Of a DNA stretch of 33,481 bases, positions 288-26,495 are shown in pieces. How positions within the stretch are numbered: position 1 is the stretch's first letter; each line of letters opens with the position of its first letter. The stretch comes from Saccoglossus kowalevskii (lineage: Eukaryota > Hemichordata > Enteropneusta > Harrimaniidae): contig NW_003115956.1 of assembly GCF_000003605.2 (NCBI RefSeq), positions 62,692-96,172 of the forward strand. The letters run 5' to 3'. A program made the position numbers and the translations under genes. The notes under the pieces were generated by a model. It searched no databases, was not told the origin of the DNA, and worked only from the letters and a program-made list of their open reading frames with translations.

Positions 288-715
288 GTATAGCAGTATA
301 GCTACGCCATCGACCAAATCTGTAGTCACACTCAACAAGTGAAGCCACGTTATTTATGCAAATTACTGCAGTCATACTCACTATTGCGTGCCAGTTGTAG
401 CTACCAAATCTGCGTTGCTTACCATTATACGTCGTTGCTTACTTTTTGGTCGTCAAACTTACGATTAAATTACATTGTAACTATGCCTTTTTAAATCTAA
501 GCAGTCATACTCACCTTTATATTACAATGTAGTTATGTCATCGCACAAAGCTAGGTACTTATCCTTCGATATCGAGATCTCGGATGTTAATTTTATGAAC
601 TCTTCTAACGGGATAATTGCTTCTTTACTTTTTAATACACATTTTTCCTAAGCAGAAACGAAAACACCCGCCGTTACTAAGTTGTCTATTATCTCTTGTT
701 ATTACAAGGTACATT
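288..715. repeat. Degenerate ~48-bp minisatellite block X (copy 1)
   Basis: The block is built of diverged units about 45-53 bp apart that carry a TAGCTACGTCATCGCACAAA-like core, followed by CATACTCACC-like segments. Core-like starts are visible near 299, 342, 395, 477 and 530. The distal part, CTTCTAACGGGATAATTGCT and flanking bases, matches 12490-12515 closely, so the whole block has a second copy at 12199-12645. It could be the core of a non-autonomous mobile element, but I see no terminal inverted repeats. Confidence 0.7.
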
Positions 716-1041
716 CCATAATTGTATACACCTTTTATATCGCAAAATCGAGTTGGTTGGATTCAATTGTTTTGTTATCCGGAAATGTGTTGTTGCATTG
801 ATTTTTGGTTACGTACACATGTTTGTTTCATTTGGAACAACATTAAACTATTGGTCCAGCCGCGGTCGATGTACCAATTTGTCAACTTTCAGAGAGCATT
901 TTTGCTTGATTCAATTCAACAAATCTGTATATAAACCTTGTGTGGTAGTTGGTACGCGTGTTGTCTATGCGTTCCCTTCTACCAAGGACAATTAGTCATT
1001 TATCAATAATAGGTAAAGGATCACTGAGATACGTGAAGCTC
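716..1041. other. Unassigned sequence left of duplication A
   Basis: About 330 bp between minisatellite block X and the left edge of duplicated block A. I searched the minus strand here for the missing terminal exon of the phosphatase gene and did not recognise one. The plus-strand open frame over 696-995 has no family resemblance and no supporting splice sites, so I treat it as chance. Confidence 0.4.
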
Positions 1042-1140
1042 TGGTTTGTCGAAATATGTGATTAAAAAAACTGCCATTCTCTTAGTTGGGCATCAGTTAA
1101 ACTGACATCACACTGATAGAAGTTCTTCGCAGACACTTAC

Positions 1141-1309
1141 CTTGCCTAAATACAATGTTCTAACATAATGAAAGCCTTTTTCATCTTCATATAATTCAAA
1201 TGTTAAATCTGCTGCATAAGGTGGCCAAATATCATCAAATATATTCAAACCAATTAACAGCGCCATCAACGTCCCATCATGACATGAATAAATCCGGAAT
1301 ATCTCAATA
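1141..1309 (-). CDS. ACP6-like: Copy A exon 7: distal HD motif
   Basis: 169 nt between acceptor ATTATTACAG and an excellent donor GTAAGT at 1140-1135, phase 2 in and phase 0 out. It carries SCHDGTLMALLIGL, the conserved HD acid/base motif of histidine acid phosphatases, then WPPYAADLTFELYED. The strong donor implies at least one more coding exon downstream, to the left of 1135, which I could not identify within the window. Confidence 0.91.
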
Positions 1310-4300
1310 CTGTAATAATCAACAGTAATATTTTATTGTAAATTAAATTTTAATAGTATTATGGTTAAATTCTTTAAATGTAATATTATAAACTATATTG
1401 TTCAAACTTTTTGCCTAAGTCTATCAGATTCACACACTTGCAAATCAATACTTTTATGTATTAACCTATTGAGCGGTCGGAGCGTATATTAGCTTTTGCG
1501 CATGCACAGACTTCCCGAATGGTGGCCATCAAGCAGCACCACGTGGATTCCTCGAATCAACTCAAACTAGACATCTAAAAAAAGAGGGTTCACCAAGGCA
1601 TCAAATATTTCTTGGGCGAGCTCTGAGCTGTGTAAATCCTTGCAATGTGAAGACAATAAAAGTGAGACGATTTCCTGTAGCTGAGACGATGTACATTTAG
1701 AGAGTGGTGAATCTACATATATGCTGTATGATCTCTGGTTTGCTGGTTCTACTTATTTATCCATGTAAGTTTACAACTATTTGTCTATCGTACAAAGTTC
1801 ACCCCAGGTTTATTTCAGTTTTTGTTTGAAAAATAGATGTGTGATGAAACTCACTTGTTTGATTGAATAAGTTGTTTCATATTATCCCTGAGCATTTGTA
1901 CAATCCTGCCTCCCGACATCTGGAGCAATTCTAAGCGATGCTTCCCAGGTTGACTAACACTATCCTTCATCCAATTAACAGCGCATTCTTCAACAAAGTC
2001 TGGCAACTGATTCAGCATGTCCATAATTGGGATACCATGTGCCTATCGTGTGTAAGATATACGGAATTGCAATAGCTTGTTGACAAGAATTATTATTGCC
2101 TTACTTGATTATCTATTAGATTGGTCTTCGAAATGTGAAGAGGGAATCAACTATAGTAACTATTTTGTGTGCAGGTATAACGGGGTAAGCCATCTAGTCT
2201 TGTCTATGTTCAAACTTCGTTCCAAAGTAGGAATTTTATTTTGACGAGTGCTGAAACGTAATTTACTGTAATAATTTGTTACCGGTCAGCTTAGAGTGGA
2301 TTGATTGATAGGTAAGTAGCTTGTGAATAATCTTTATTTATATTCCCGATAAATACACTAGGCTATTATTTTTCATAAATGCCAAGCAACGGAACTAAAA
2401 TCTAAACATAAAACATTAACGATGATTATCTAGTTTGATGATACTAACTTATGAATAGGTTTATACTAAAACTAAATTGAACTAAAATTGAATAGTTACA
2501 TATTTATATTATATGGAATTAAAACATGCGGGGTTTATCCCTAAAATACTATTATATTGAGATTCACATATGAAAGTCCGAAAACTAGTTTGCGGTATTC
2601 ACTCCACAAAAAACGACGATCTTTTGACCTCGGGTTATTGTTTGACTTGTGACGTGGATATTGGCAACGAACGCATGTTTCGATAGTTATTCATTTTGCC
2701 ATATGAACGACGCTTACAAGCGAAGTGAGTAAGATTACATCTCGTTTAGTACGTTTGATGCCTCCTGTTACGGATCTTTGCATTCTTCATAATTGTTGTT
2801 CGAGAAATATGCACATTCAAATTTGTTTTTCCAATTTACCAAATTCCAATTTACACAGTATTATACATGACTTCCAATCACGTTTAACATTCGCTTGTTT
2901 AGGATTTATTGTGATTCGATAATAAGGCAAATTAAATAGTATAATATTCAACATCATTCATCAACTATTTTTTTTGTCAACACTATCCCTGTGCATATGA
3001 GTTTTATCAACTCATTACACTAATTTGAATATTATGTTTTGGAACAAATCCACTAACATAAATCCAGTGTTAACACGAACGATGAGTAGTATGGTCGCCA
3101 ACTCACCTTTTGACAGGAAATAACATCACTTATCTTGAATAAATCTTCTCGGTTGCATTTCGAAATGCCAAATATCTTCTGAATACGCTGAATATTTACT
3201 CTCATCTCTGGCGTAATATTTTCGTCACACATGTTTTTAGTAAGTGCACTAAGTCTTCCACAGGAATTGAAGTTTGGATACATGATGTCATCCATTGCTG
3301 TAGCAACAAAAATGGGAACAGAACCTGAAAATAATATAAGTTGGTAAATGGTTTGATTGTTGTTTTTGTTCTAAGTCATATTTATATGGTTATATAATAT
3401 ACGATCTTGTATTCTTGTTTTGACTTGTAAAATGACAATAGTGGCGTGAAATTTGTTTTTGTAGTTTCAGTGTCACTCATTTGTTAGCCGAATACTAAAT
3501 AACAACTAATTGCCGAACAAATTGTAGATCTAAAGATTGATTGGTTATATTGCACCGTCATGTGACTCATACCTGCTGTTCGTGATCATTGGAATGTACC
3601 ACATTAGGGTCAATTGACGTCGATATTTTTAACTGATAAAATTATGAAACTATATACACTGAGAAATAATTATGGCTGTATTATGTAATACCTTTGTCAA
3701 AAAAGTATTACTTACCTTTCTTATTAATTTCATTTCCAAACATCCCTGCTAATACACAGGCGGCAGACTCAATTGTGCGATTTAAATTAGAACTTCTAAT
3801 ACTGAACAAAAATAATAAAAATGACTGTATAAATAGATAGAGTGTTTTCGTATACAGATGTCTCGCATGTTCGTCTGATACGCACTATATATATATATAT
3901 ATATATATACAAGTCACTGTGCTGTACCTACTAGATATGTTCAGGTTCATACTGTGGATCAAGAAACCGCAATTTATCAATGTAGTATTTCTTGTAAACT
4001 TCTCCTAAGTGATGCATTTGATGTTTGCCTTTAGTGGTCAGCTGACCAGCATGTGTTCCACCCTATAAAATGTAAGTAACGTGTTTTAAAACACACGCGC
4101 TGCTACAGTAGTTCGTTGTTTTCATCTCAATTCATACATTAGTATTACCACGTGACATTATGCTTTAGGAATCGTTTCAAAAAAACAACTCATAGAGGAT
4201 ATCTTGCCAATATCAGTAGTAAAACGGATTGTGAAAAAGGATACGATCCTAGTCTACTCTTTGGTGTTTTAATGGAATTAAGTTACAATGTGAATGAGTA

Positions 4301-5063
4301 AGTATATCCATGATGTACTTTCGCAGTGTTCAGAACTTGTCCTTACCTTAAATAATACCGTTTTGTTTATAGCATCGAAATACTTTTCAGGCGCAGGACC
4401 ACCCCCAAGATCCTTGACAACATAATCAGCTAGTAAACCTTCTCCTCCCGAAAACAAAACATTCCTGTCCCACACTTGCTGTAAAACATAACAACCACGA
4501 ATAATATGCATCACAATGTACAAATATTTTTAGTTGTCAACACAGACTGACTCTAATCATCAGATCGTACAATATATAGCATTGGTTAATAGAGAGATGT
4601 CTAACAGGATTTATTATGTTAGCTGCAACCTTCTAACAGGTCCAAATAAAAAGCGTATTGTCTGATTAAAATATGAAACACCATATAACAAAAAACAAAC
4701 AAACAAACAAACAAATTACATTAAGTGATCTACAATATAAATGGTTCTATTCAAATGTATCAGCTATGTTTATACATTACAGTGGAAATAAATACTCACT
4801 TCTAGTTCTGGTATTTTCGTCGGATTTGCTAATAAATTCAGGGGTGTTCTAGCACCATGTCGGAAAAACACTTGAACCATTTTCAGTTGCAGTCCTCGCT
4901 TTGTGATGTGGTCAATCTGAAAACGAGCATCGTCCACCTCAATCCCAATAGATCCATCGTCCGAAATCGCTTTGGTAGAATTCACGAAATGAGCAGACCA
5001 AGTGAAGCACGCAGCGCATACACCTGTCCCGACAAAACACAGTTTACGGAAATATGTCGACAT
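1141..5063 (-). CDS. ACP6-like: ACP6-like histidine acid phosphatase, copy A (7 exons, 3'-incomplete)
   Basis: Spliced gene with exons 5063-4800, 4478-4347, 4062-3932, 3801-3716, 3324-3107, 2042-1855 and 1309-1141. Joined, they give 396 codons without a stop. Exon 1 carries RHGARTP, the phosphohistidine motif of branch-2 histidine phosphatases. Exon 7 carries SCHDGT, the distal HD proton-donor motif, followed by IFDDIWPPYAADLTFELY, which closely resembles the human lysophosphatidic acid phosphatase ACP6. Family members hydrolyse lysophosphatidic acid to monoacylglycerol; ACP6 is mitochondrial in mammals. The N-terminus has a hydrophobic stretch (CFVGTGVCAACF) that could be a signal, anchor or import segment. 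ATG at 5063 is the only ATG upstream of the conserved region in this frame, although its Kozak context is weak. Human ACP6 has 428 residues, so about 30-40 C-terminal residues in a final exon are missing, probably left of the window. Expression cannot be judged from sequence. Confidence 0.9.
1855..2042 (-). CDS. ACP6-like: Copy A exon 6
   Basis: 188 nt between acceptor ACGATAG and donor GTGAGT at 1854-1849, phase 0 in and phase 2 out. It starts AHGIPIMDML, where human ACP6 has AHNLPSCPML, and includes the LELLQMSGGRIVQML helix segment. Intact. The acceptor has a short pyrimidine tract but is conserved in copy B. Confidence 0.88.
3107..3324 (-). CDS. ACP6-like: Copy A exon 5 (cap-region exon)
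   Basis: 218 nt between acceptor TTATTTTCAG and donor GTGAGT at 3106-3101, phase 1 in and phase 0 out. It contains DDIMYPNFNSCGRL, aligning with SEVLYPNYQSCWSL of human ACP6, then a variable helical stretch. This is the most diverged exon between the two copies: 18 of 73 residues differ. Confidence 0.9.
3716..3801 (-). CDS. ACP6-like: Copy A exon 4
   Basis: 86 nt between acceptor TTTGTTCAG and donor GTAAGT at 3715. The split codon completes YIRSSNLNRTIESA, aligned with FIRSTNIFRNLEST of human ACP6, and the exon runs on to the CVLAGMFG segment. Phase 2 in, phase 1 out. Intact. Confidence 0.9.
3886..3909. repeat. (TA)12 microsatellite, intron of copy A
   Basis: A 24-nt TA run just downstream of the exon 3 donor, between exons 3 and 4. 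The orthologous site in copy B is 88 nt long. Confidence 0.97.
3932..4062 (-). CDS. ACP6-like: Copy A exon 3 (intact)
   Basis: 131 nt between acceptor TTTTATAG (AG at 4064-4063) and donor GTAGGT at 3931-3926, phase 0 in and phase 2 out. It begins GGTHAGQLTTKG, matching the GGMFAGQLTKVG segment of human ACP6, and ends at QYEPEHI plus two bases. Positions 4035-4048 form a perfect 14-bp palindrome (TGGTCAGCTGACCA). This part is deleted in copy B. Confidence 0.9.
4347..4478 (-). CDS. ACP6-like: Copy A exon 2
   Basis: 132 nt, 44 codons, between acceptor TTTTACAG (AG at 4480-4479) and donor GTAAGG at 4346-4341, phase 0 at both ends. It contains DYVVKDLGGGPAP, aligning with the VTNLAGGPKP region of human ACP6. 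No stop or frameshift. Confidence 0.9.
4690..4716. repeat. (CAAA)n microsatellite
   Basis: AAAC/CAAA tetranucleotide run in intron 1 of copy A. It is also present, slightly shorter, in copy B near 23099-23119. Confidence 0.85.
4800..5063 (-). CDS. ACP6-like: Copy A exon 1: N-terminus and RHGARTP motif
   Basis: 264 nt, 88 codons, from ATG at 5063 to a GTGAGT donor at 4799-4794, ending in phase 0. The order is hydrophobic N-terminal segment (residues about 8-21), a polar linker, then LQLKMVQVFFRHGARTPLNL. The catalytic His-Arg pair of RHGxRxP is intact. In-frame sequence continues upstream to a TTG at 5099 but has no other ATG. Confidence 0.92.
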
Positions 5064-5545
5064 CGAAAATATTTTTAAAATGGAGAGCTGGAATATCAAC
5101 TGCCCGGTACAAACATCGCCTGCTGACGTGGAATATAAATAATCTCTGGCAGATTATTTCTAACTGGGCAGCGCTATTTTTGTCTATAGGCGAATTACTA
5201 TCGTTAAAAATTACTACGAGTTATGTTTAGTGTAAAACATAAAATATATCTGTTATGCTCAATGGTCAATAGGTGAACAAGATCTCAGATATCAAACATT
5301 ATGTGTATAATGTGAAGCAATGTGTTTAATATTGGATATTGGTAATATCCTATATGTTATGATATGGTTTTTAAATCATAAATAACCCCGAGCAACAAAT
5401 AGAAAGGGTTGTGTTTCAAAGGTGTGAAATGATTTGAGAAACAATCGGGCATTTGTCTCTGTGTGTCATGTCATGTTCTGTGTATTTACAATTCTTTACC
5501 ACTCCGTTCTATCTACGTGTACAGCCATTCCATGAACGGCTCGTA
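5064..5545 (-). promoter_or_regulatory. Conserved 5' flank of copy A (putative promoter/5' UTR)
   Basis: Sequence upstream of the first ATG is conserved with copy B (23469-23936) nearly as well as exons, including the stretch around 5130-5175 with an AT-rich TATTTATA-like site (minus strand, 5141-5134) next to a CACGTCAG element. This would suit a promoter and 5' UTR. No transcription start can be fixed from sequence, and conservation may only reflect the shared duplication. Confidence 0.35.
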
Positions 5546-8112: not shown

Positions 8113-8610
8113 AATACCACATTTCAGTATTACCTTATCCCCAGCAAGGTCAATGCTCATACTTTAGGCAGCAACGTCGAGGTGAGGGGAGATATACGTC
8201 TTGGTGACCTGGTACTTCTTTATAGCGATAGGGATAAATCCTGTGCCAGAAATCGTTATTTGGTTCTTGGTGTTTCTGATGAACATTGTCAAATTATAAA
8301 GTTCATGAAATCCAAGTTCCTTGCTAAAATATATGAATATAAATATATTAGACTTAATTATTGCTACCTAATTAAGTCTACTGTGATACATCAGCCATTT
8401 TCCGACCATGTTAGAGACCTAAATGAAGTTGAAGACTCAGATTCGGATACTGGGATTACATCTTTGCTTACTACTATGGTTACCCCGACCTTATTCCAAG
8501 CCTCACCAGAAAGACGCGATAATAATAAAGAGCCAGCTGCTTGTATTATGTCGCGTAGATCTTCCAGAGTTAGAAAGCCACCTGAATGGAAACTAAATGA
8601 GAATTGGGTA
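8113..8610 (+). pseudogene. LTR-retrotransposon integrase C-terminal fragment
   Basis: An open frame with no ATG reads RGDIRLGDLVLLYSDRDKS, then CARNRYLVLGV and a short basic/aromatic stretch, and ends with SRRSSRVRKPPEW. The GDLVxLYSDRDKSxARxRY pattern followed by an R-rich, proline-containing tail matches my recollection of the C-terminal end of pol polyproteins of invertebrate LTR retrotransposons (probably Ty3/gypsy-like). Catalytic integrase residues, RT, protease and LTRs are not present, so this is a 5'-truncated remnant. The frame continues without a stop into a LINE fragment. Assignment to a superfamily is inference. Confidence 0.6.
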
Positions 8611-8958
8611 ATATGGTGCGAGTCTAGCCTAATTGTGAAGTTAAATAAACTTCTATGTGGTTGTCTTGTTGGCAACATTGTGATTAATAATATCAGTTAT
8701 GCAGATGGCATGTGTTTACTAGCGCCCTCTATAAAAGGGCCACGAAAACTACTTAACACATGTGAATTATTTGCTACTGATCAGGATATGCTCTATAATG
8801 TGGTGAAAACGAAGTGTATGCACTTTCCTTCCAAGCTTAAACTCGACATTCTGCTTCCGGTTAGCATAACCAAGTCAAACTATTTCATGAAATTTCCAGA
8901 AATATTGTATATAAATTTAGATAGTGTACTTAGTACTCGTCCAACAACAGTATATTGA
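8611..8958 (+). pseudogene. LINE reverse-transcriptase fragment
   Basis: In the same open frame as the integrase fragment, the protein changes character to VKLNKLLCGCLVGNIVINNI, then SYADGMCLLAPS and a KTKCMHFPSK segment. This is the palm region of a non-LTR retrotransposon reverse transcriptase, where the usual motif is YADD. Here the second catalytic Asp is Gly (YADG), which would abolish activity. Family similarity is lost after about 8850, probably by frameshift, and the frame stops at 8958. Both ends of the RT are missing. The following AT-rich 9070-9150 region could be its 3' UTR. Confidence 0.7.
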
Positions 8959-12198: not shown

Positions 12199-12645
12199 TG
12201 TGACAGTATAGCCACGTCATCGACCAAATCTGTAGTTACACTGGACAAATGTAGCCACGTGATTTGTACATTCATACTCACCATTGTGTAACAGTTGTAT
12301 CCACCTAAATTTGCGTTGCTTACCATCTTACAATATCTTTGCGAAATTACTAGTATTGGTTATTTGACATTGTAAATACGCCTTCCCAAATTTAAGCAAA
12401 TGTACTTACCATTATGTTAGTGTGGCTACGTCATCGCACAAAGCTAGATACTTATCTCTCGATATTGATATCTTGGATGTTAATTTTGTGAACTCTTCTA
12501 ACGGGATAATTGCTTCCTTACTTTTTAATACACATTTTTCCTATAAACAATCGCAAACACATGCGATTACTAAGCTGTTTGTTATCCCTTATTATTATTA
12601 CGTTTGTTGGATAATATCAAGTTTCACCCATTTTATTTTTGAATA
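12199..12645. repeat. Degenerate ~48-bp minisatellite block X' (copy 2)
   Basis: A second copy of the block at 288-715 in the same orientation. Matching landmarks are CATCGACCAAATCTGTAGT near 12217, GCGTTGCTTACCAT near 12313, CATCGCACAAAGCTAG near 12431 and CTTCTAACGGGATAATTGCT near 12494. Divergence is moderate with several indels. The units have the same ~48-bp spacing as copy 1. Confidence 0.75.
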
Positions 12646-13347
12646 AAGGTAATATAAGCCGATCGATAGTTTCTACCTATATCATGGCTGAGTTTTGTGA
12701 AGCTAGACGAAATATAATTTCGGAAATTGTGTTATTTGCGGACAATTTCTGGACATAGCAGCTTCATACACACATATGAAGGCGCATTTGTCACCTATAG
12801 TCCAGTAGAAATTGACGAGAACCAATACATTTTATATAACAAATATATTTTTTGTTCAATCTCTATATGTTGATGCTCTATAACGGTAAGAAAAATTCAA
12901 TCTGAACCTTGGGAAAGTTGTTTTTTAAGCATGTAAAATTGCAATTTTTGGTCAAAAGTGTAAAAAACGCAATTTTGATTTTCACGACAACATTTGTTTT
13001 GTTTATCATTGATAATCTAAAGAATAACAACAGTTAATTTGGTATATATATATTGGTGTCACAGAAGTGCAAATAACAATCAAGCAAGATAACCCTGGGA
13101 AACCGATGTTTTCTCGTGTATGAACAATGCTATTTTGGTTTGGTTTAATGACTACACAATTCCGAACATTTTCTGTACTGCGAAACAATGGAAAAATACA
13201 AACGTGATAAAGGCTGTGCTATATTCCAGAAATCCGATCTGGTATGTCTCCATCGAGATAATGCGCGCACTCAGAATAGAAACGTATTACTCATAAATAT
13301 GAGTTTGATGATGATCTGTTCATGTTACTGATTGCCAGAGAATCTTC
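12646..13347 (-). other. Possible 3' flank/UTR of the CXC-domain relic
   Basis: About 700 bp of AT-rich sequence directly downstream (minus strand) of the CXC-domain relic. It contains runs such as AATTGCAATTTTTGG and a short TA run at about 13042. It could be the 3' UTR of the relic, but that is only inferred from position. No gene is recognised. Confidence 0.25.
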
Positions 13348-16300
13348 TTACGCTGGATCTTCAATGTGCTTAATGTCTTTAGGATCGTCATTGTCATCTT
13401 CATCATCACCTGTCAAGTAGCTTGTTGATGGGCTATTCTCGCATTGTGCCTGACACCTGCAGTGAATACTACAATGGAGACCCTTTTTTTGAACATCCAC
13501 ATGATGAACATAAGTGCACACTAGTCCTGCATGAACATCTAATGATTGAAAAGAGTTTATGTGGTGTAGCTGCAATATCTGTAATAATAGTTGAAACTGA
13601 ACTATCTTTTAACTTAAACCCATAATCTTCTTTATTTGACACATTTTCACGATGCTTCCTTGTAGTAACCAGATGGTGCACACGCAGGCTGTGAAAGTAG
13701 CAGGCTCTGCTTGTAGGAGGCATACGCTCAACAGGAGTATACTTTGAAGATATAACATGAAGAGCTCATCTATACCATTTATTGCTTTCATATTTCCACT
13801 GTATAAGATTTTGACAATTGTCTCTCCAACATTACACAGCCCTTGGATTGGTGTTGATGTGTCCCCAAATACCAGTACATCAGTTCGTAGTTGTGATGAC
13901 TGGAGGAGTTTTATTATTTTTACCAGACATTTACAGACCATTTACAACCAGACATATCGTGGACAAACAAAAGACACATACAAAGTTCCAGTCCTATAAC
14001 TTCTTTTGCTGTCTTGATAGATATAGTATGTTGTTTCGTCTGCATAACGTTGTCAGCAGGCATACTTGAATGATAAAGCAGCAGGATCAACTCATCTGTG
14101 TCATCAGCAATCACAACAACATGATTGTTTGTTCCCGCAAGTTCAACAGCATTGCGAACAATTACAACATCAGCATCACCTGCATGCTTTACAACAACTC
14201 CAGCATCTGTCAGCTTTATAAGCTTTTGCTTGTTGGATTTATTCAAGAGAAAACTGTCTTATTCTGTGGAACAGGTGTCTTAACATTGACTGCAACATCT
14301 GATTATGCATCTTTGTTGTAGTGACTTCGTAACTATCAAACAGTATGTAGAGTGGAGTGGAGCCCCAACTGATCGTCTGTGAGATGCAGCAGCAACAAAA
14401 GATTCACATACTGAATCCAGTGCATCAACTTTTGGACAGGGTATACGGTGTAGAAGAGCACATCCATCAAACACCTTAACAGTAGGTTCATCATTTCTAT
14501 GAACAAGGATATCATCAACCATCCGGAGTAGATAATTAGCCATTTGTGACTTCTGTGACTTCCTTATGTTGCCATCATCTTGGAAAAAAGCTGGAGAAAC
14601 AGTGGCAAGCTCATGTACACATACACTTGGCTGTGGAAGTCCATTCAGATATGCAACTGACAGCAGACGTTGGTAGAGTTCTGCTGATGACATGGCAATA
14701 TTTTCATTTTCAACCTTAATCAGCTTTCTCATTACCGCAAAAGTTTTAGCTTGATCAACCTTCTTCATGGTGACTTCTGCAACTTTTTTGCCTGTTAGCT
14801 TGGCATGAATATTCAGTCCTATTTGTAGTGAATCATCGACATTCACTCGGTAATCAGCAATCAAGCCTGTTGCAACATTTCTTCATCATCTTCAACAGTA
14901 AAAGGATTGTGCTCAAGAAGGAAGGCCTTGAATCTTTTTGTTCTGGCTGATTCCTGGTGCATAATGTTTATAAGTCCTCCTTGTGTCTTCCCATACGTTA
15001 TTAGGCTTTGTTTATAGTTATTGTGCCCTGCTGCAGCAAAAATAAGGAAGCATGTCCTGTGTAGATTTAAGGTGAAGCTTCCAATTTCCATTTCTTTCAG
15101 CCCTTATGAACATTCTAACAACTGATACAATATTGATGAACATAACCCACAACTTTCCTGTTCTAGACTTTTCCTTGTCCTTTTTCATATCACACACTTG
15201 TTTGTGAAGGTTCCATAACATATCAGAAGAAGCTATTTCACCAACTGACATGTCACATACATAGCTGTGTATATATCTTCCAGTGTTGACCATATGCATT
15301 ATTATTCATTGGTGCATTAATTTCGTTAACGCCATTACCAGTATCACCATTCACCACTTGCTCTCCAGGAATTGAGACATTTGTTGTGTTGACGCCAATA
15401 TCATTCTGTTCAAGAGAGCCGGACTTTTCTTCCAGTGGCATCAATAATATCAAGGGTAGAGCAGCATATGTTAATAGATAAGCCCACAATGTCTTAGCTT
15501 AGGCCTTTCCATCCATCACCTTTGGCAATTTCTTGCATAAACAGTTGCCCATAAATTATTTAAACCACTACCGTACATTCATTGGCACCCTGCTCCTAGA
15601 AAGAACATCAGTTTGTGAAAGCCACCAAGATGCAAATTGATATGACTGAACTCAGGTTTATTGTCCTGTTTGATCTTGTAAGCCTTCAGGTATAGTGGAT
15701 AGTCTAGTGTCAATGTTGCACAACACATGCCTGCTTTCATAGCTTGGGACTGTACAAATACCATTGTGCTATAAACAGCTTCATTTGATTGGGGATTTAG
15801 GGGAATCATTGGACTGTATAACACAGCTGAGCACTCGCAATTACCATCTACCACTGTTGACATGAATTTGGTGGTTTTTGGTGTAGACGACTAGGAAACA
15901 GCCATAATGTGTCCACAAGTTCATATTCGATGACGTTTACCTCTATAGGCTGGTTAGGCTTGAACTTTACATCTGACATGTTTAATTTTGGTGGTGTTTT
16001 ATATGGTCGTATTATTTCGCCAAAATTACCAGCCTTAACAATTTCATCTGCTGAAACATGTCTTCGTTGAATTACATCTAACTGCTTGTCACTACTGCAT
16101 GGTGTTTTGCATGTAATGATACCCATGACGTGTGTGGAGTCATGGCCAGTTACTGTGTCTTCATTATAATCAAAGTTATCTGCCACCCACTGGCAAAAGC
16201 CGCCACCCCTTTCTTGTTCAACAAGGCTTACAGAAAGCCTGTCAATGGATTGACTGACGACTGAAGATTTTTCAAATGCCATTACTTGATCATATGATGC

Positions 16301-16715
16301 ACTTAATCCAAGAGAAGAAAGCACATCAAGAAGAACTCGAGACCTTATTGACTGGTGTATAAAAAGACCAACTGATAGAAGCACTGGTGATAAAATTATG
16401 TCTGTTTTAAGGCTACTTGCATTATTATGAGACATAGTGATACTTGCAAGAGCTTCTTTTTACGTTTAGCTTGTTTTGTACGTGAATCAGTAAACATGCA
16501 TGTTATTAGGTGCTGGGGGGAATCAGGGATATGGCCTTCAAGCTTCTCAAGATCTATCTCTGTGGGCATGGGGTACACATCTGTTGACTGATCTATGCTT
16601 TGTAAATCTTGCTTTATGTTGGATGAAACCAATTTTGCAAGTCTAATGTTTTCTTCTACACATTCAGAGATTTCTGAATCAGCATATGATTCGTGGAGAA
16701 TTGTTTGTATTCGGA
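13348..16715 (-). pseudogene. Decayed multi-copy CXC-domain protein gene (mobile-like family)
   Basis: Reading the minus strand from 16715 to 13348 across several frames gives one continuous ancestral protein. In order: an N-terminal acidic region, LFIHQSIRSRVLLDVLSSLG and WVADNFDYNEDTVTGHDSTH (near 16200), LGGFHKLMFFLGAGC (near 15600), FIRAERNGNW and DMLPYF (about 15110-15050), FAAAGHNNY, FDGCALLHRIPCPK (near 14450), GDADVVIV and IADDTDELILLLYH (14180-14080), PPTSRACYFHSLRV (near 13700), and a Cys-rich tail (CSCRT...CSSCGC, then GLHCSIHCRCQAQCENSP, about 13540-13440) typical of a tesmin/TSO1-like CXC domain. I recall this domain order from abundant uncharacterised proteins of invertebrate genomes. 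At least nine frameshifts and at least one stop (TAA at 15501-15499, in a GKA-stop-AK context where relatives have Tyr) show it is dead. The family's function is unknown; its copy number suggests mobility. No terminal repeats were identified. Confidence 0.75.
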
Positions 16716-19014
16716 ATCAAAAAAATGTCACAAACATTATTTCTTATGAAAACACAAGAATAGTTCAAAATGGCCTAACTATCAAAGTTTTAGATCGATA
16801 ATTATCGGAGAATTATTTTATACTTTTTTATGAAAGTTGTACTTCGATATTCATCTATCGCGGAATCGCAAGGTTGCAGTTTACATCCGGTAGCACCTTT
16901 CCAAATGTATCTGCATATTAATTAAAATCATTTATTTATTCATTATGCAAGAGATAAATAGGCACTGAATTTAGCATTCTGTAGTGTTTACATAAGTTTT
17001 TGTGATTTTCAAAAATACAAATACTATCTCTTTACATTCCTATATTGTGTGTTTTCGGGAAACATTCTTTGTTCACCTCCACACGTTTTCCTACCAATCA
17101 AAAACATTGATAGTTCGAAGAGAATTATGGGAGAATTCTATGTTTAAAACAAAAAAAATCACCACTCAGCTGTAAACCCTGTCTAATATCTATCTAAAAG
17201 ATCGAGAATTATCAGATAATTATCCGATAATTTAAATGTACAATAGGCCAGCTTCTTCTAATGCCAGGAGCCGGAATATTGCACAAGTTTATACTGTCTG
17301 CAAATTTGAATCATAATTCAACATTCAAGGGTAAGGTCCACATTATACAACATCCATCAGAATTCCACATTTGATTTTTTTTCTTAAAATTTCTCGCCCA
17401 TTCTCTCATAATGATCTTATTGTTAGATCGATATCAGAGCTGGATCTACATGTACAATAGAGTCGGAGTACGGTATTTTAATATTTTATCGAATTTGAAG
17501 ATAGCCTTGAGTAGCAGTCATTAAAATCAACAGGCACTCGTGATTTGCTTGAAATCGAAAATAGTTGAATAAAGTAAAATCCATCCTCCTAGATAATGGC
17601 TACTCGAATTAAATTATCTCCGTCCAAATTTTGGTTACTTTTGACGGAGAAGAAATTCGGGCCCAATAAATGCCCAGTCATAAATTATCCTGTTTCTATG
17701 CACTCAGAAAACCTGATAACTTTAAACATACTATTTTAAAGTTCTTCACTACAGTCAGATTTCATGTTGCTAGCATACTAATTTTCACTGACAATATGGC
17801 ACATTCTGGCCGGCTCACGTACTGAACAATGTCATTTAGATGTTCCCGAGTACAAGTTGTCAGAGGCCAACATGAAGACTGTCAGGTACATAGTTCATTG
17901 TTGATCTGAACGTTTGCCAATAATTAAACAACAATATGTTGCATCTGGAGCTTGATAGGATACTGCGCGTCTGAGCATATTGTTTGACATTGTAAATCTG
18001 AATGTACAATTGCCGACGATGATCACAAAACACCTCCATGAAAGCCCATGGCCAGAGGAGTGGAAAGTATTATAATCCGGCATACTTATTAATTTAATTG
18101 TAAAGAAATGTAACATTTTATTATGTAGCGTTTGAGCGTAGGATAATATCTGAAGGATAATATCTGAAGAAGAATAATAATATTTATTCTTATAGTAAAG
18201 AGATAAAAATGCAGTGAAATGTCAAAAACGTTTCTAAAATGTTGTAGGTGTCAGAACCTATTAGCATCTCAACATAGGGTTGTCGGAATATAGGTGTGTA
18301 TCCATAACGTAAACACTCTCGTGCAACCATCATAGTACTAATACTTCTACTGCTACGAGTAGACGGCTTTGAATTTGAGTGAACTTGAGAAATACAGTCG
18401 TTCGTGTGGGAATTCAACGTGCTTATCTCACTGTCAGAATTATGGAGGCACAACAGAGTCGTCGGCAAAAGAGCGCACTTTCCCTGTCGCTTGGTTTTGG
18501 TTGCAGTCATTGTTTTGATCTATAAAGTTGCATATATTCTCTCAAACCAGGTGCAGCGAACGACAAATATTTTAAGATATTTTCGCGTCACCATGGTTCC
18601 GCCTAACTGCCACTGGTACACCACGTAGACACATACAGATCACATACTCATATTAAGGTTTTAACGCATACATTTGAACCCATACTGAAGATTGTTATAT
18701 ATCGAACAATGCAATACATATGAAAACTCACTTTTTTGACCAAACTTAGCACAATTTGTAATATAATAAATGAGGTAGTCGTCAATCGTAAGCTGTCCGC
18801 CATCTTTAGTGAAATCACAGTAGGGGTCATGTCAAAAGGTCGTAGCCTCAGTCTCGCTATCTACGAGATGAGACTTGAATGGGATCTTGACAAAATGTTA
18901 CCATACAGTACTATGCCCGTTGCAACCCCCAAGTGATGTACCTCTGGTTAGTTTTAATATAAATAATTTTGGACACATCGCACGTTAATTGTGCAACAAA
19001 TAAAAATCATTACC
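16716..19014. other. Unassigned stretch between CXC relic and block B
   Basis: No gene is recognised on either strand. It contains the imperfect palindrome at 17208-17234 and a similar GATCGATAATTATCGG motif at 16793-16808. The phosphatase copy B terminal exon is expected somewhere to the left of 19117 on the minus strand; I searched this interval and could not recognise it. Confidence 0.4.
17208..17234. repeat. Imperfect AT-rich palindrome
   Basis: AATTATCAGATAATTATCCG and the bases after it form a nearly perfect inverted repeat centred on ATAATTAT. With 16793-16815 it may mark an element edge, but AT-rich palindromes arise easily by chance. Confidence 0.4.
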
Positions 19015-19116: not shown

Positions 19117-19285
19117 CTTGCCTAAATACATTGTTCTGACATAATGAAACCCCTTTTCATCTTCATATAATTCAAATGTTAAATCTGCTGCGTAAGGTGG
19201 CCAAATGTCATCAAATATATCCAAACCAATTAACAGCGCCATCAACGTGTCGTCATGACAAGAATAAATCCGGAATTTCTCGATA
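19117..19285 (-). CDS. ACP6-like: Copy B exon 7: distal HD motif
   Basis: 169 nt ending at a GTAAGT donor (19116-19111). It carries SCHDDTLMALLIGLDIFDDI. Four residues differ from copy A, one immediately after the catalytic HD (Gly to Asp). No following exon is recognised. Confidence 0.9.
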
Positions 19286-19916: not shown

Positions 19917-20104
19917 TTGTTTGATTGAATAAGTTGTTGCATATTATCCTTGAGCATTTGAACAATCCTGCCTCCCGACATCTGGAGCAATTCTAAGCGA
20001 TGCTTCCCAGGTTGACTGACAATTTCCTTCATCCAATTAACAGCGCATTCTTCAATAAAGTCTGACAACTGATTTATTATGTCCATAATTGGAATACCAT
20101 GTGC
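19917..20104 (-). CDS. ACP6-like: Copy B exon 6
   Basis: 188 nt, same borders as copy A. 8 of 62 residues differ, most of them conservative (Met/Leu/Val to Ile, Asp to Glu, Arg to Lys). Intact. Confidence 0.88.
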
Positions 20105-21290: not shown

Positions 21291-21508
21291 CTTTTGACAG
21301 GACATGACATCACGTATCCTGAACAAATCCTGGCGGGTGCATTGCGATATGCCAAATATACCCTGAATAGGCTCAATTTTTCGTCTCATCTCTCGCGTAA
21401 TATTTACGTCACACATGTTTTTAGTAAGTACACTAAGTCTCCCACAGGCATTGTAGTTTGGATACATGATGTCATCTGTTGCTGTAGCAACAAAAATGGA
21501 GACAGAAC
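21291..21508 (-). CDS. ACP6-like: Copy B exon 5 (cap-region exon, diverged)
   Basis: 218 nt between TTATTTGCAG and GTGAGT. Frame is open across all 73 codons, yet 18 residues differ from copy A, including several charge changes (for example EMRVNIQRIQK against EMRRKIEPIQG). DDIMYPNYNACGRL is retained. Confidence 0.9.
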
Positions 21509-21868: not shown

Positions 21869-21954
21869 CTTTCTTGTTAATTTCATTTCCAAACATCCCT
21901 GCTAACACACAGGCGGCAGACTCAATTGTGCGATTAAAATTAGAACTTCTAATA
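21869..21954 (-). CDS. ACP6-like: Copy B exon 4
   Basis: 86 nt, same borders and phases as copy A. One residue differs (Leu to Phe after RSSN). Confidence 0.9.

Positions 21955-22032: not shown

Positions 22033-22035
<3 letters not shown>

Positions 22036-22123
<88 letters not shown>
22036..22123. repeat. (AT)44 microsatellite, intron of copy B
   Basis: A pure 88-nt AT run immediately downstream of the exon 3 donor, between exons 3 and 4. The paralogous site in copy A is 24 nt. It also creates long Ile-Tyr frames that are artefacts. Confidence 0.98.
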
Positions 22124-22125
<2 letters not shown>

Positions 22126-22145
22126 AGTCACTGTGCTGTACCTAC

Positions 22146-22247
22146 TAGATATGTTCAGGTTCATACTGTGGATCAAGAAACCGCAATTTATCAATGTAGT
22201 ATTTCTTGTAAACTTCTCCTAAGTGATGCATTTGTTGTTTGCCTTTA
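22146..22247 (-). pseudogene. ACP6-like: Copy B exon 3 remnant (acceptor deleted)
   Basis: 102 of the expected 131 nt remain, from a bare T followed by AAAGGC to the GTAGGT donor. The 33 retained codons differ from copy A by one residue (His to Gln). The intron reads TTACATTTTAT and joins straight to TAAAGG, so the AG and ten codons' worth of exon start are gone. The assembly gap begins 15 bp upstream (minus-strand sense), which lowers certainty. Confidence 0.75.
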
Positions 22248-22262
22248 ATAAAATGTAAGGAA

Positions 22263-22542
22263 NNNNNNNNNNNNNNNNNNNNNNNNNNNNNNNNNNNNNN
22301 NNNNNNNNNNNNNNNNNNNNNNNNNNNNNNNNNNNNNNNNNNNNNNNNNNNNNNNNNNNNNNNNNNNNNNNNNNNNNNNNNNNNNNNNNNNNNNNNNNNN
22401 NNNNNNNNNNNNNNNNNNNNNNNNNNNNNNNNNNNNNNNNNNNNNNNNNNNNNNNNNNNNNNNNNNNNNNNNNNNNNNNNNNNNNNNNNNNNNNNNNNNN
22501 NNNNNNNNNNNNNNNNNNNNNNNNNNNNNNNNNNNNNNNNNN
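22263..22542. other. Assembly gap (280 N)
   Basis: A run of 280 undetermined bases in the intron between exons 3 and 2 of copy B. In copy A the matching interval (about 4075-4146) is only about 72 bp, so the gap is either a real insertion or an arbitrary gap size. Confidence 1.
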
Positions 22543-22737: not shown

Positions 22738-22869
22738 CTTAAATAATACCGTTTTGTGTATAGCATCAAAATGATTTTTAAGCGCAGGACCACCCCCAAG
22801 GTCTTTAACAACATAATCAGCTAGTAAACCTTCTCCTCCCGAAAACAAAACATTCTTGTCCCACACTTG
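22738..22869 (-). CDS. ACP6-like: Copy B exon 2
   Basis: 132 nt with the same CAG acceptor and GTAAGG donor as copy A. 6 of 44 residues differ, four of them consecutive just after GGGPA (LKNH against PEKY). Frame is intact. Confidence 0.88.
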
Positions 22870-23204: not shown

Positions 23205-23468
23205 TTCTAGTTCTGGTATTTTCGTCGGATTTGCTAATAAATTCAGAGGTGTTCTAGCACCATGTCGAAAAAACACTTGAATCATTTTCAGTTGCAGTCC
23301 TCGCTTTGTGATGTGGTCAATCTGAAAACGAGAACCGTTCACCTCAATCCCAATAGATCCATCGTCAGAAATCGTTTTGGCAGAATTCACGAAATGAGCA
23401 GACCAAGTGGAGCACGCAGCGCATACACCTGTCCCGACAAAACACAGTTTACGTAAATATGTCGACAT
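23205..23468 (-). CDS. ACP6-like: Copy B exon 1: N-terminus and RHGARTP motif
   Basis: 264 nt, 88 codons, from ATG at 23468 to a GTGAGT donor. It differs from copy A at 8 residues, mostly in the N-terminal segment and linker. The LKMIQVFFRHGARTPLNL catalytic region differs only by Val to Ile. Confidence 0.92.
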
Positions 23469-23936
23469 CGAAAATATTTTTAAAATGGAGAGCTGGAATA
23501 TCAACTGCCCGGTACAAACATCACCTGCTGACGTGGAATATAAATAATCTCTGGCAGATTATATCTAACTGGGCAGCGCTATTTTTGTCTATAGGCGAAT
23601 TACTATTGTTAGAAATCACTACGAGTTATGTTTAGTGTAAAACATAAAATATATCTACTATGCTCAATGGTCAATATGTGAACAAGGTCTCAAACATTAT
23701 GTGTATAATGTGAATCAATGTGTTTAATATTGGATACTGGTAATATCCTATATGTTATGATATGGTTTTTAAATCATAAATAACCTCGAGCAACAAATAG
23801 AAAATGTTGTGTTTCAAAGGTGTGAAATGTTTTGTGAAACAATCGGGCGTTTGTCCCTGTGTGTCATGTCATGTTCTGTGTATTTACAATTATTTACCAC
23901 TCCGTTCTATCTATGTGTACAACCATTCCCTGAGCA
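23469..23936 (-). promoter_or_regulatory. Conserved 5' flank of copy B (putative promoter/5' UTR)
   Basis: Counterpart of 5064-5535. Few substitutions or indels separate the two flanks up to the point where block B acquires its extra ~1 kb. Whether it drives transcription is unknown. Confidence 0.35.
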
Positions 23937-24972
23937 TCCACCGACTTGTACATTATCATACATTTTACACCTCAATTCGACCAAATAATCATCCCTGGCA
24001 AAATTTCATCCTGATGTAATATCCCATATTTCTTTCTCAGGAGAGCAGCCAATTTATGTTTCGTTTTTGTTTCAAGATTAACACGTAGACTAAATATAGC
24101 GAAATATATGATGGCCGTTAAGGGATTAGATTTGTTCCTTTATCATTCAAATCACTATGTATTTCCTGCTATTCAAAATACACACTAATCTAATATTTGG
24201 AATTAGTTCAGACTATATTTGAACTTATTAAACAGCCTTGTAAAGCCATACCATAGTTCAAAGAACAATTATTCACAAAATACAAAGAAAAAATAAATAA
24301 GGAGCCTACAATTAGCGTCGTGGTAATCGAAACTGATTCACTCCGACGACATCAGATCACTTCTACAAAATTTCAGATATAAAAATCAAATCTTGATGAT
24401 GTATAACATAGTGCTTAACAAATTGTAATATAATATATATGAGTATTACTGGAGAAAATACAATGCCCCCGTTTGAGAACGATTCAGCTATAACTTGCAA
24501 CAAGCTGACAATGTTTGTTGGCTGACTGTCATACAATATTCACACTGTCAGAGCGCAATGAATGACAGTTGTCACATAACAATCAAATGTCGTGTACATA
24601 ACTCATTAAAATATTTGATTTGTAGTTAGATGCAATATTGAACAAAAAACATATTGTTCTGCCGGAAATATGTAAACATTGTTGACAATTGACGTTGAAT
24701 ATAGTATTCACGCAGTTACCCAATATGATGACAGTTGATCACTTAATTGTATATTATTGTCCAAGAGCAGATCGTTTGACCGACTTTATGAAGTATAATT
24801 TTCTCCTAGCGGAAAGGCACGAAAACACATATTGGGACTGTAGTATTTGTATAACATGCCTTTGCCGTGATATGCGTGAGTTGTATTCACCCAGGACAAT
24901 AATAATCACCGGTTAACACCACCCAGACGAACATTTGCATGTGTCGCCATCTTTAACAAACGTTTCTGCGCG
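23937..24972. other. ~1.04-kb block present in B, absent in A
   Basis: Alignment of the two blocks breaks after ACCATTCC (A 5535, B 23935) and resumes at GAACGGCTCGTACAA (A about 5534, B about 24974). The extra B sequence has no clear terminal inverted repeats, target-site duplication or protein. It could be an insertion in B or a deletion in A. Confidence 0.7.
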
Positions 24973-26495
24973 TTGAACGGCTCGTACAATTGGCAACGGT
25001 CAACTCACTTTTCACCGCAAAATATCCCGGATGTTTCATTTTTAAACCACGTGTAGAAAGTATAAGTATAGAAGGCACCTGAAAAACTGGCATTGAATAC
25101 AAAAACAACACAAAGTTTTGTGTGTTTACTAAAAAGATGCCCTCTCCCAACTTCGAAAGTCCGACAGTGTTTATCCGAGCAAAATAAACGAATTCAAATA
25201 ATCAACTGCGTTTACAAACGTTATCCTCCACAAAGGAAAGACTTCGTCGCTCACCGTAAGTCAATATACACCAAAAATAAAAATAAAGATGTGGGAAACT
25301 ATAAGTTTAAATGCTAAAACTACGTCTAATATTAAAAAATACAAAAGTGATAATATACTAATACGTAGTGTGTTCACTTCATTTTTCATATCCACCCACT
25401 TGCACATAAGGTTGAATAAAAATTCAATATAAGGGAGTTGTTAAAAACCAGTAATTGTTACACGAATACGATGCAATCTGTTTTGTTTTATCGGTTGTTT
25501 TGTTTTTAAACACTGATTGCCCTGAACTTGGCACCTGACATAATAGTATACATTGAGCACATATCTTGATTTTTGCATTCAAATTGGTACGAACATTAAG
25601 CAGTCCAAGAATTTACACTCACAAATGACCATGACGACTGACATATAATGTATACGTACAGCATAACTAACAAGTGCACTACAACCCAAGAACCCATGTC
25701 ATGTGTTGGAAAAGATTCAATGACTGCCACAGTCAATTATTTTCTGCAATTAGAAACTGAAATTCAAACAAATATGACTAGTATCTTTGTATTGTCCAGT
25801 ATTCGCGTTGAATTCTTTAAAAGATAGTCCACAAATATTAATGAATAATCACATATTATTCCTAGTTCACAAACAATTAACACAGTTAGATCATTTCACA
25901 GAGCTAGGTTGCGCCACTGATTATTGCTGCAATAGCTTTATTATTTGCCGAAACTCGGTAAACAAACGTACCATGAAGTTGCATGATAGATCGTTCCTCG
26001 AAGCTCGGTATTCATACTTAACATTACACTGTATTTTATCGTTTCTTAAAGCTGGGTATTATTAATTTGTGTTACCGTGTAGCTTCGCCATCGCACAGAG
26101 CCAGATAGTCAGATTTCGATATCGAAACTTTGTATGACATTTTAAAGACATACTGTAATGGAATATTTGTCTTTTTAACTTTGGAATATACGTTTCTCGT
26201 GAAAAGCGCAACACACAACCAGATATTCTATTTGCTGTTACGTCGGTCTCTAGACATGACTGTTTACTGTGTGCCATTTGCTACACCTACGCTACATTTT
26301 ACTATGTTCGATGACATATATTCTACACTACAATAACTTGTATCAATGCACGAAATTACATTACGCATGCACGAATGCAAATTTCTCTGTTATACAAAAA
26401 GGACTCTTCATATCAAAATATTGTATATAACATGATGCTAGAATAAAAAACTTTTATTTACAGCGCTCATTATATTGCAATTTGCTGCAAAACGT
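24973..26495. other. Duplicated distal 5' flank of block B, no gene recognised
   Basis: Counterpart of 5546-7090. Frames are not conserved between the copies. It includes the periodic repeat at 25930-26130. Homology to block A fades after about 26495. Confidence 0.5.
25930..26130. repeat. Degenerate ~48-bp periodic repeat, copy B
   Basis: Cores near 25945, 25995, 26043 and 26091 (ACTCGGTA, AGCTCGGTA, AGCTGGGTA, GAGCCAGATA), matching the periodic repeat at 6535-6745. Confidence 0.55.

Follow-up and report, generated by a model that had tools for sequence, protein, structure and literature searches.

Two tandem phosphatase genes

The window, by which we mean the entire 33,481-nt stretch of Saccoglossus kowalevskii DNA analysed here, contains two tandem histidine phosphatase genes resembling human lysophosphatidic acid phosphatase type 6 (ACP6), both on the minus strand and designated copy A and copy B (Table 1). 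They can be aligned in blocks extending from about 7085 to 1041 in copy A and from 26483 to 19015 in copy B, with an additional matching block, 294-704 against 12204-12597, which holds exon 8. The eight exons of copy A join at GT/AG junctions into a single open frame, for which the best solved structure is that of human ACP6 (4job; E 3.1e-65), with 134 of the 367 aligned residues identical over copy A residues 55-433; the next chain, prostatic acid phosphatase, follows at E 3.2e-22, and Pfam His_Phos_2 is matched at E 3.7e-29. The alignment to ACP6 extends over the catalytic domain, with the RHGAR and HD motifs in place; RHG and HD we take to be catalytic. Judging from these matches, copy A is an ACP6-like histidine acid phosphatase of branch 2 of the histidine phosphatase superfamily, with putative lysophosphatidic acid phosphatase activity. 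In copy B, the open frame around exon 7 matches His_Phos_2 on its own (E 1.2e-7). The locus differs from ACP6 in that there are two tandem copies, and in that the assembled copy B is missing the first part of exon 3, which in copy A encodes GGTHAGQLTT.

Table 1. Positions of the two phosphatase genes and of the features around exon 3 of copy B. The ends of exon 8 in both copies were derived from exon lengths.
Feature	Position	Strand	Remarks
Copy A gene, start to stop	522..5063	-	ACP6-like; eight exons, 437 aa; from joined frame, structure and Pfam matches
Copy A exons 1-8	5063-4800, 4478-4347, 4062-3932, 3801-3716, 3324-3107, 2042-1855, 1309-1141, 647-522	-	
Copy A exon 3	3932..4062	-	131 bases; copy B lacks 4064-4034
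Copy B exon 1	23205..23468	-	
Copy B exon 2	22738..22869	-	
Copy B exon 3 as assembled	22146..22247	-	Truncated to 102 of 131 bases; lacks an acceptor AG at its start, donor matches copy A
Copy B exon 4	21869..21954	-	
Copy B exon 5	21291..21508	-	
Copy B exon 6	19917..20104	-	
Copy B exon 7	19117..19285	-	
Copy B exon 8, through stop codon	12412..12540	-	Absent from the list in the earlier note
Gap-edge 29 bases of copy B	22234..22262	-	End of intron 2 (22262-22248) and truncated exon 3 (from 22247); deletion between 22248 and 22247
Copy-A-like patch	22124..22247	-	Rest of exon 3 and first 22 bases of intron 3; 123/124 identical to copy A 4033-3910
Perfect AT microsatellite	22035..22123		44.5 units, 89 bases, in copy B intron 3; copy A has only about 24 bases of TA
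N gap	22263..22542		280 bases, the only N run of the window; edges 67 bases apart in copy A (4146-4080 between)

The earlier note on this DNA described all six other exons of copy B as open, with good splice sites; they are open and bounded by GT/AG junctions, only their number is seven, as the genes have eight exons, and none of the seven carries a second lesion. It also called copy B an otherwise constrained gene, and over 391 codons outside exon 3 the two copies indeed show dS 0.166, dN 0.061 and dN/dS 0.37 (Fisher p 1.2e-5 on rounded counts), a pairwise value which mixes in the constraint on copy A and cannot be assigned to copy B alone. No sign of relaxed constraint is thus seen in copy B outside exon 3 by pairwise dN/dS, but a very young pseudogene would show none either. 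Among 51 residue differences between the copies (exon 3 included, codons split by an intron excluded), copy A agrees with human ACP6 at six, copy B at four and neither at 41, the last figure also counting residues that fall beyond the alignment or face a gap in it. The near-equal agreement with ACP6 and the pairwise constraint together suggest no visible decay of copy B. Between the copies, exon 5 has diverged most in dN, at 0.135 compared with 0.061 for all exons but exon 3 combined, and 13 of its 18 residue differences fall within residues 239-273.

Intron 7 is about 6.6 kb long in copy B and about 0.5 kb in copy A. The region 12600-19010 within it carries a run of minus-strand open frames (13469-16716), by eye resembling a decayed mobile element; a Pfam scan of six of its eight listed frames gave no hit that passed the cut-off, and a search of the region for inverted repeats of at least 20 bases (11-base seed) found none. 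Elsewhere in the window, a plus-strand open frame of 281 aa at 8113-8958, which by eye presumably resembles retroelement pieces, has no Pfam match, and positions 1-265, at the window edge, form a tandem array of 5.2 copies of a 50-base unit. Rfam and tRNA scans yielded nothing. As expected for an animal gene, an IMG/VR search for related copies gave 12 stretches fitting the pattern, none of which was confirmed, and a single back-translated exon 3 pattern had no matches in prokaryote genome contigs. In another animal, a lysophosphatidic acid phosphatase gene appears in a table of genes enriched in cercariae of S. japonicum (PMC5223471).

The deletion at the exon 3 acceptor

On the minus strand, copy A reads TTACATTTTAT followed by the acceptor AG (4064-4063) and then by GGTGG, the exon beginning at 4062, while copy B passes from TTACATTTTAT directly to TAAAGG, joining TTTTAT to TAAAGG at 22248/22247. 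The bases without a counterpart in copy B are exactly those of copy A 4064-4034, i.e. 31 bases comprising the acceptor AG and 29 bases of the exon, so that the deletion is as the earlier note had described it. Toward the gap, 14 of the 15 remaining bases (22262-22248) agree with copy A 4079-4065, the end of intron 2, indicating a deletion relative to copy A rather than an unrelated join. Within the 29 bases at the gap edge, copy B departs from copy A at 22260 and 22235. A chance or misread junction is ruled out, as the junction is exact and a 20-base string across it occurs in the window once at up to three mismatches, that is, as itself (mean 0.00 in 100 shuffles). An insertion in copy A, instead of a deletion in copy B, is likewise ruled out, because the 31 bases encode a conserved segment, GGTHAGQLTT sharing 7 of its 10 residues with human ACP6.

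With the sequence as assembled, skipping of the 131-base exon 3 shifts the frame, and the nearest AG in copy B (22242) is out of frame and leads to a stop after seven codons, both as previously proposed. Two AGs deeper in exon 3, which had not been taken into account, are in frame, with first exon bases at 22204 and 22165; their scores are -7.6 and 0.2, while the 13 other acceptors in the two genes range from 3.8 to 14.9 in leave-one-out scoring, although these scores are rough because the profile is small and built from these same genes, mostly as paralogous pairs. Splicing at one or the other would cost the protein 24 or 37 residues, among them the segment conserved in ACP6. Eight AGs upstream of the gap in copy B, which may lie in any reading frame, score at most 0.7, and every AG visible in copy B scores below the 13 other acceptors.

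A copy-A-like segment between the microsatellite and the gap

The lesion lies in a 139-base segment (22124-22262) delimited by the AT microsatellite on one side and by the N gap on the other; the break is 15 bp from the window's sole N run. This segment includes 111 consecutive bases identical to copy A, the next longest identical run in the 5.7 kb compared being 68. Identity in the other exon columns compared (exons 1, 2 and 4-7) is 92.6%, and in non-exon columns 86.1%, with indel events counted as differences; the comparison did not take in the AT tract, the 31 deleted bases, exon 8, the gap with the corresponding part of copy A, or regions lacking a blast match (copy A 1403-1460 and copy B 23934-24973 among them). 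When differences were shuffled separately within exon and non-exon columns, runs of at least 111 appeared in 263 of 20,000 shuffles (about 0.013); a uniform shuffle of all columns gave 2 of 20,000 for a run counted as 122 across the left-out AT tract, which overstates its rarity. The patch is unusual, yet not overwhelmingly so. Exon 3 has no synonymous change in 17 sites, compared with dS of 0.166 in the other seven exons, which taken alone is weak (about 0.06 by arithmetic). Beyond the AT tract, intron 3 returns to five mismatches and two indel events in 83 columns.

All the differences of copy B from copy A in this segment, namely the two mismatches and the deletion, fall within the last 29 bases before the gap or at the edge of that interval. 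The mismatch rate there (2/29, or 6.9%) is about that of exons elsewhere (7.4%), and at the exonic mismatch copy B encodes Gln, as does human ACP6, while copy A encodes His. The gap itself is 213 bases longer than its equivalent in copy A, leaving room for unseen sequence.

The patch can arise from misplaced copy A sequence or from a real gene-conversion tract, and the identity run does not separate the two. A hallmark of misassembly is present, in that the local sequence resembles the wrong paralogue and is bounded by a repeat and a gap, but a conversion tract would look alike; its own hallmark, paralogue identity above that of the surroundings, is likewise present in the 111-base run. Raised identity is also found elsewhere in the pair: between 4810 and 5489, across exon 1 and its upstream region, almost every 148-column window is 94-98% identical, and exon 4 together with its flank reaches about 96%, both above average, so that conversion or constraint may act in this pair. 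Upstream of copy B, about 1.04 kb (23934-24973) has no counterpart in copy A, where the flanking blocks meet at 5535/5533; this copy-B-only sequence adjoins the stretch of raised identity covering exon 1 and some 470 bases upstream.

Origin and meaning of the truncated exon

Taken together, the tandem duplicate, the microsatellite, the gap and the concentration of differences next to the contig end speak for a local assembly error, which we regard as the most likely source of the missing acceptor, with somewhat better than even confidence. During contig building or gap closing, the assembly would have left copy B inside the long AT microsatellite and continued with copy A sequence, whose exon 3 adjoins a shorter AT run, until the path reached a poorly supported contig end and halted at the gap. 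On this view, the two mismatches and the join at the 31 missing bases would be errors of the contig end or the product of a chimeric join, and the assembly would contain neither the true acceptor of copy B nor the true beginning of its exon 3. We favour such an error because it explains not only the patch but also the deletion, as a fault at the contig edge, and why that deletion lies 15 bases from the only gap. The earlier note had allowed for misassembly as a real alternative to recent inactivation, and we now rate it above inactivation on account of the copy-A-like patch between microsatellite and gap, which that note did not mention; recent inactivation is not established, since the lesion lies in the copy-A-like 139-base segment beside the gap.

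Several observations do not fit an assembly error easily. No bases are common to both breakpoints, as read from the sequences, and simple graph collapse through a shared repeat therefore does not explain the deletion. The Gln shared with human ACP6 looks like the mark of a genuine copy B edge, the difference rate near the gap is ordinary, the identity run is only moderately improbable, and identity is raised elsewhere in the pair as well. Thirty-one is a common assembler word size, to which we give no weight in explaining the length of the deletion.

A study of a tomato short-read assembly describes its high-coverage regions as richer in simple repeats and tandem genes, with more than a quarter of them potentially misassembled, and misassembled regions as tending toward flanking simple repeats, pseudogenes and transposons (PMC7852129). 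The present case resembles the errors described there in that a tandem paralogue, an AT microsatellite and an N gap all touch the aberrant segment, and differs in being known from the sequence of one assembly alone.

Less probably, although as a serious contender, the 31 bases spanning the exon 3 acceptor of copy B were really lost, by end joining without microhomology and perhaps after recent conversion from copy A; copy B would then be a young unprocessed pseudogene, or else the deletion would belong to one allele and heterozygosity for it would have broken the assembly. The deletion is exact, homologous intron bases are kept on its far side, no similar string occurs elsewhere in the window, and none of the visible AGs has a score comparable to those of the other acceptors; the Gln shared with human ACP6, and conversion as the source of the other patches of raised identity, would fit as well. 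Against this, a real lesion would have to fall by coincidence 15 bases from the sole gap, unless the lesion itself caused the gap, and the differences from copy A crowd at the contig edge. As the other seven exons of copy B are intact and the pair is constrained, inactivation would have to be recent, and conversion would in addition require a separate real deletion at the gap edge, unless heterozygosity for the deletion broke the assembly. The full sequence of events, in which a recent conversion from copy A overwrote a short stretch of copy B about exon 3, one of its ends falling in the AT microsatellite, and faulty repair deleted the acceptor and killed an otherwise constrained paralogue, perhaps still segregating, seems to us improbable. 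Copy B resembles an unprocessed (duplicated) pseudogene in being a tandem copy with its introns kept and one disabling lesion in the assembly, but this lesion is single, lies at a contig edge inside a copy-A-like patch, and is found in a gene whose copies are mutually constrained outside exon 3.

That copy B works despite the lesion, through one of the two in-frame acceptors (the one at 22165 having, by eye, a partly pyrimidine-rich tract) or because the N gap conceals an acceptor or an alternative exon, for which its surplus length would leave room, is very unlikely, as both AGs score below the other sites and would cost the residues noted above.

If the deletion is nevertheless real, transcripts of copy B would keep intron 2, omit exon 3 or be spliced at a cryptic AG, and any of these outcomes is expected to abolish phosphatase function, since every splice option considered shifts the frame or removes at least 24 residues. 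Copy B would then be an ordinary young tandem pseudogene of modest interest, and a clean example of a duplicate lost very recently, next to a conversion tract. If, as we consider most likely, the deletion is a local assembly error, the locus is a warning that, where a paralogue has been declared a pseudogene on the strength of a single draft assembly, its sole lesion can stem from the edge of a gap.
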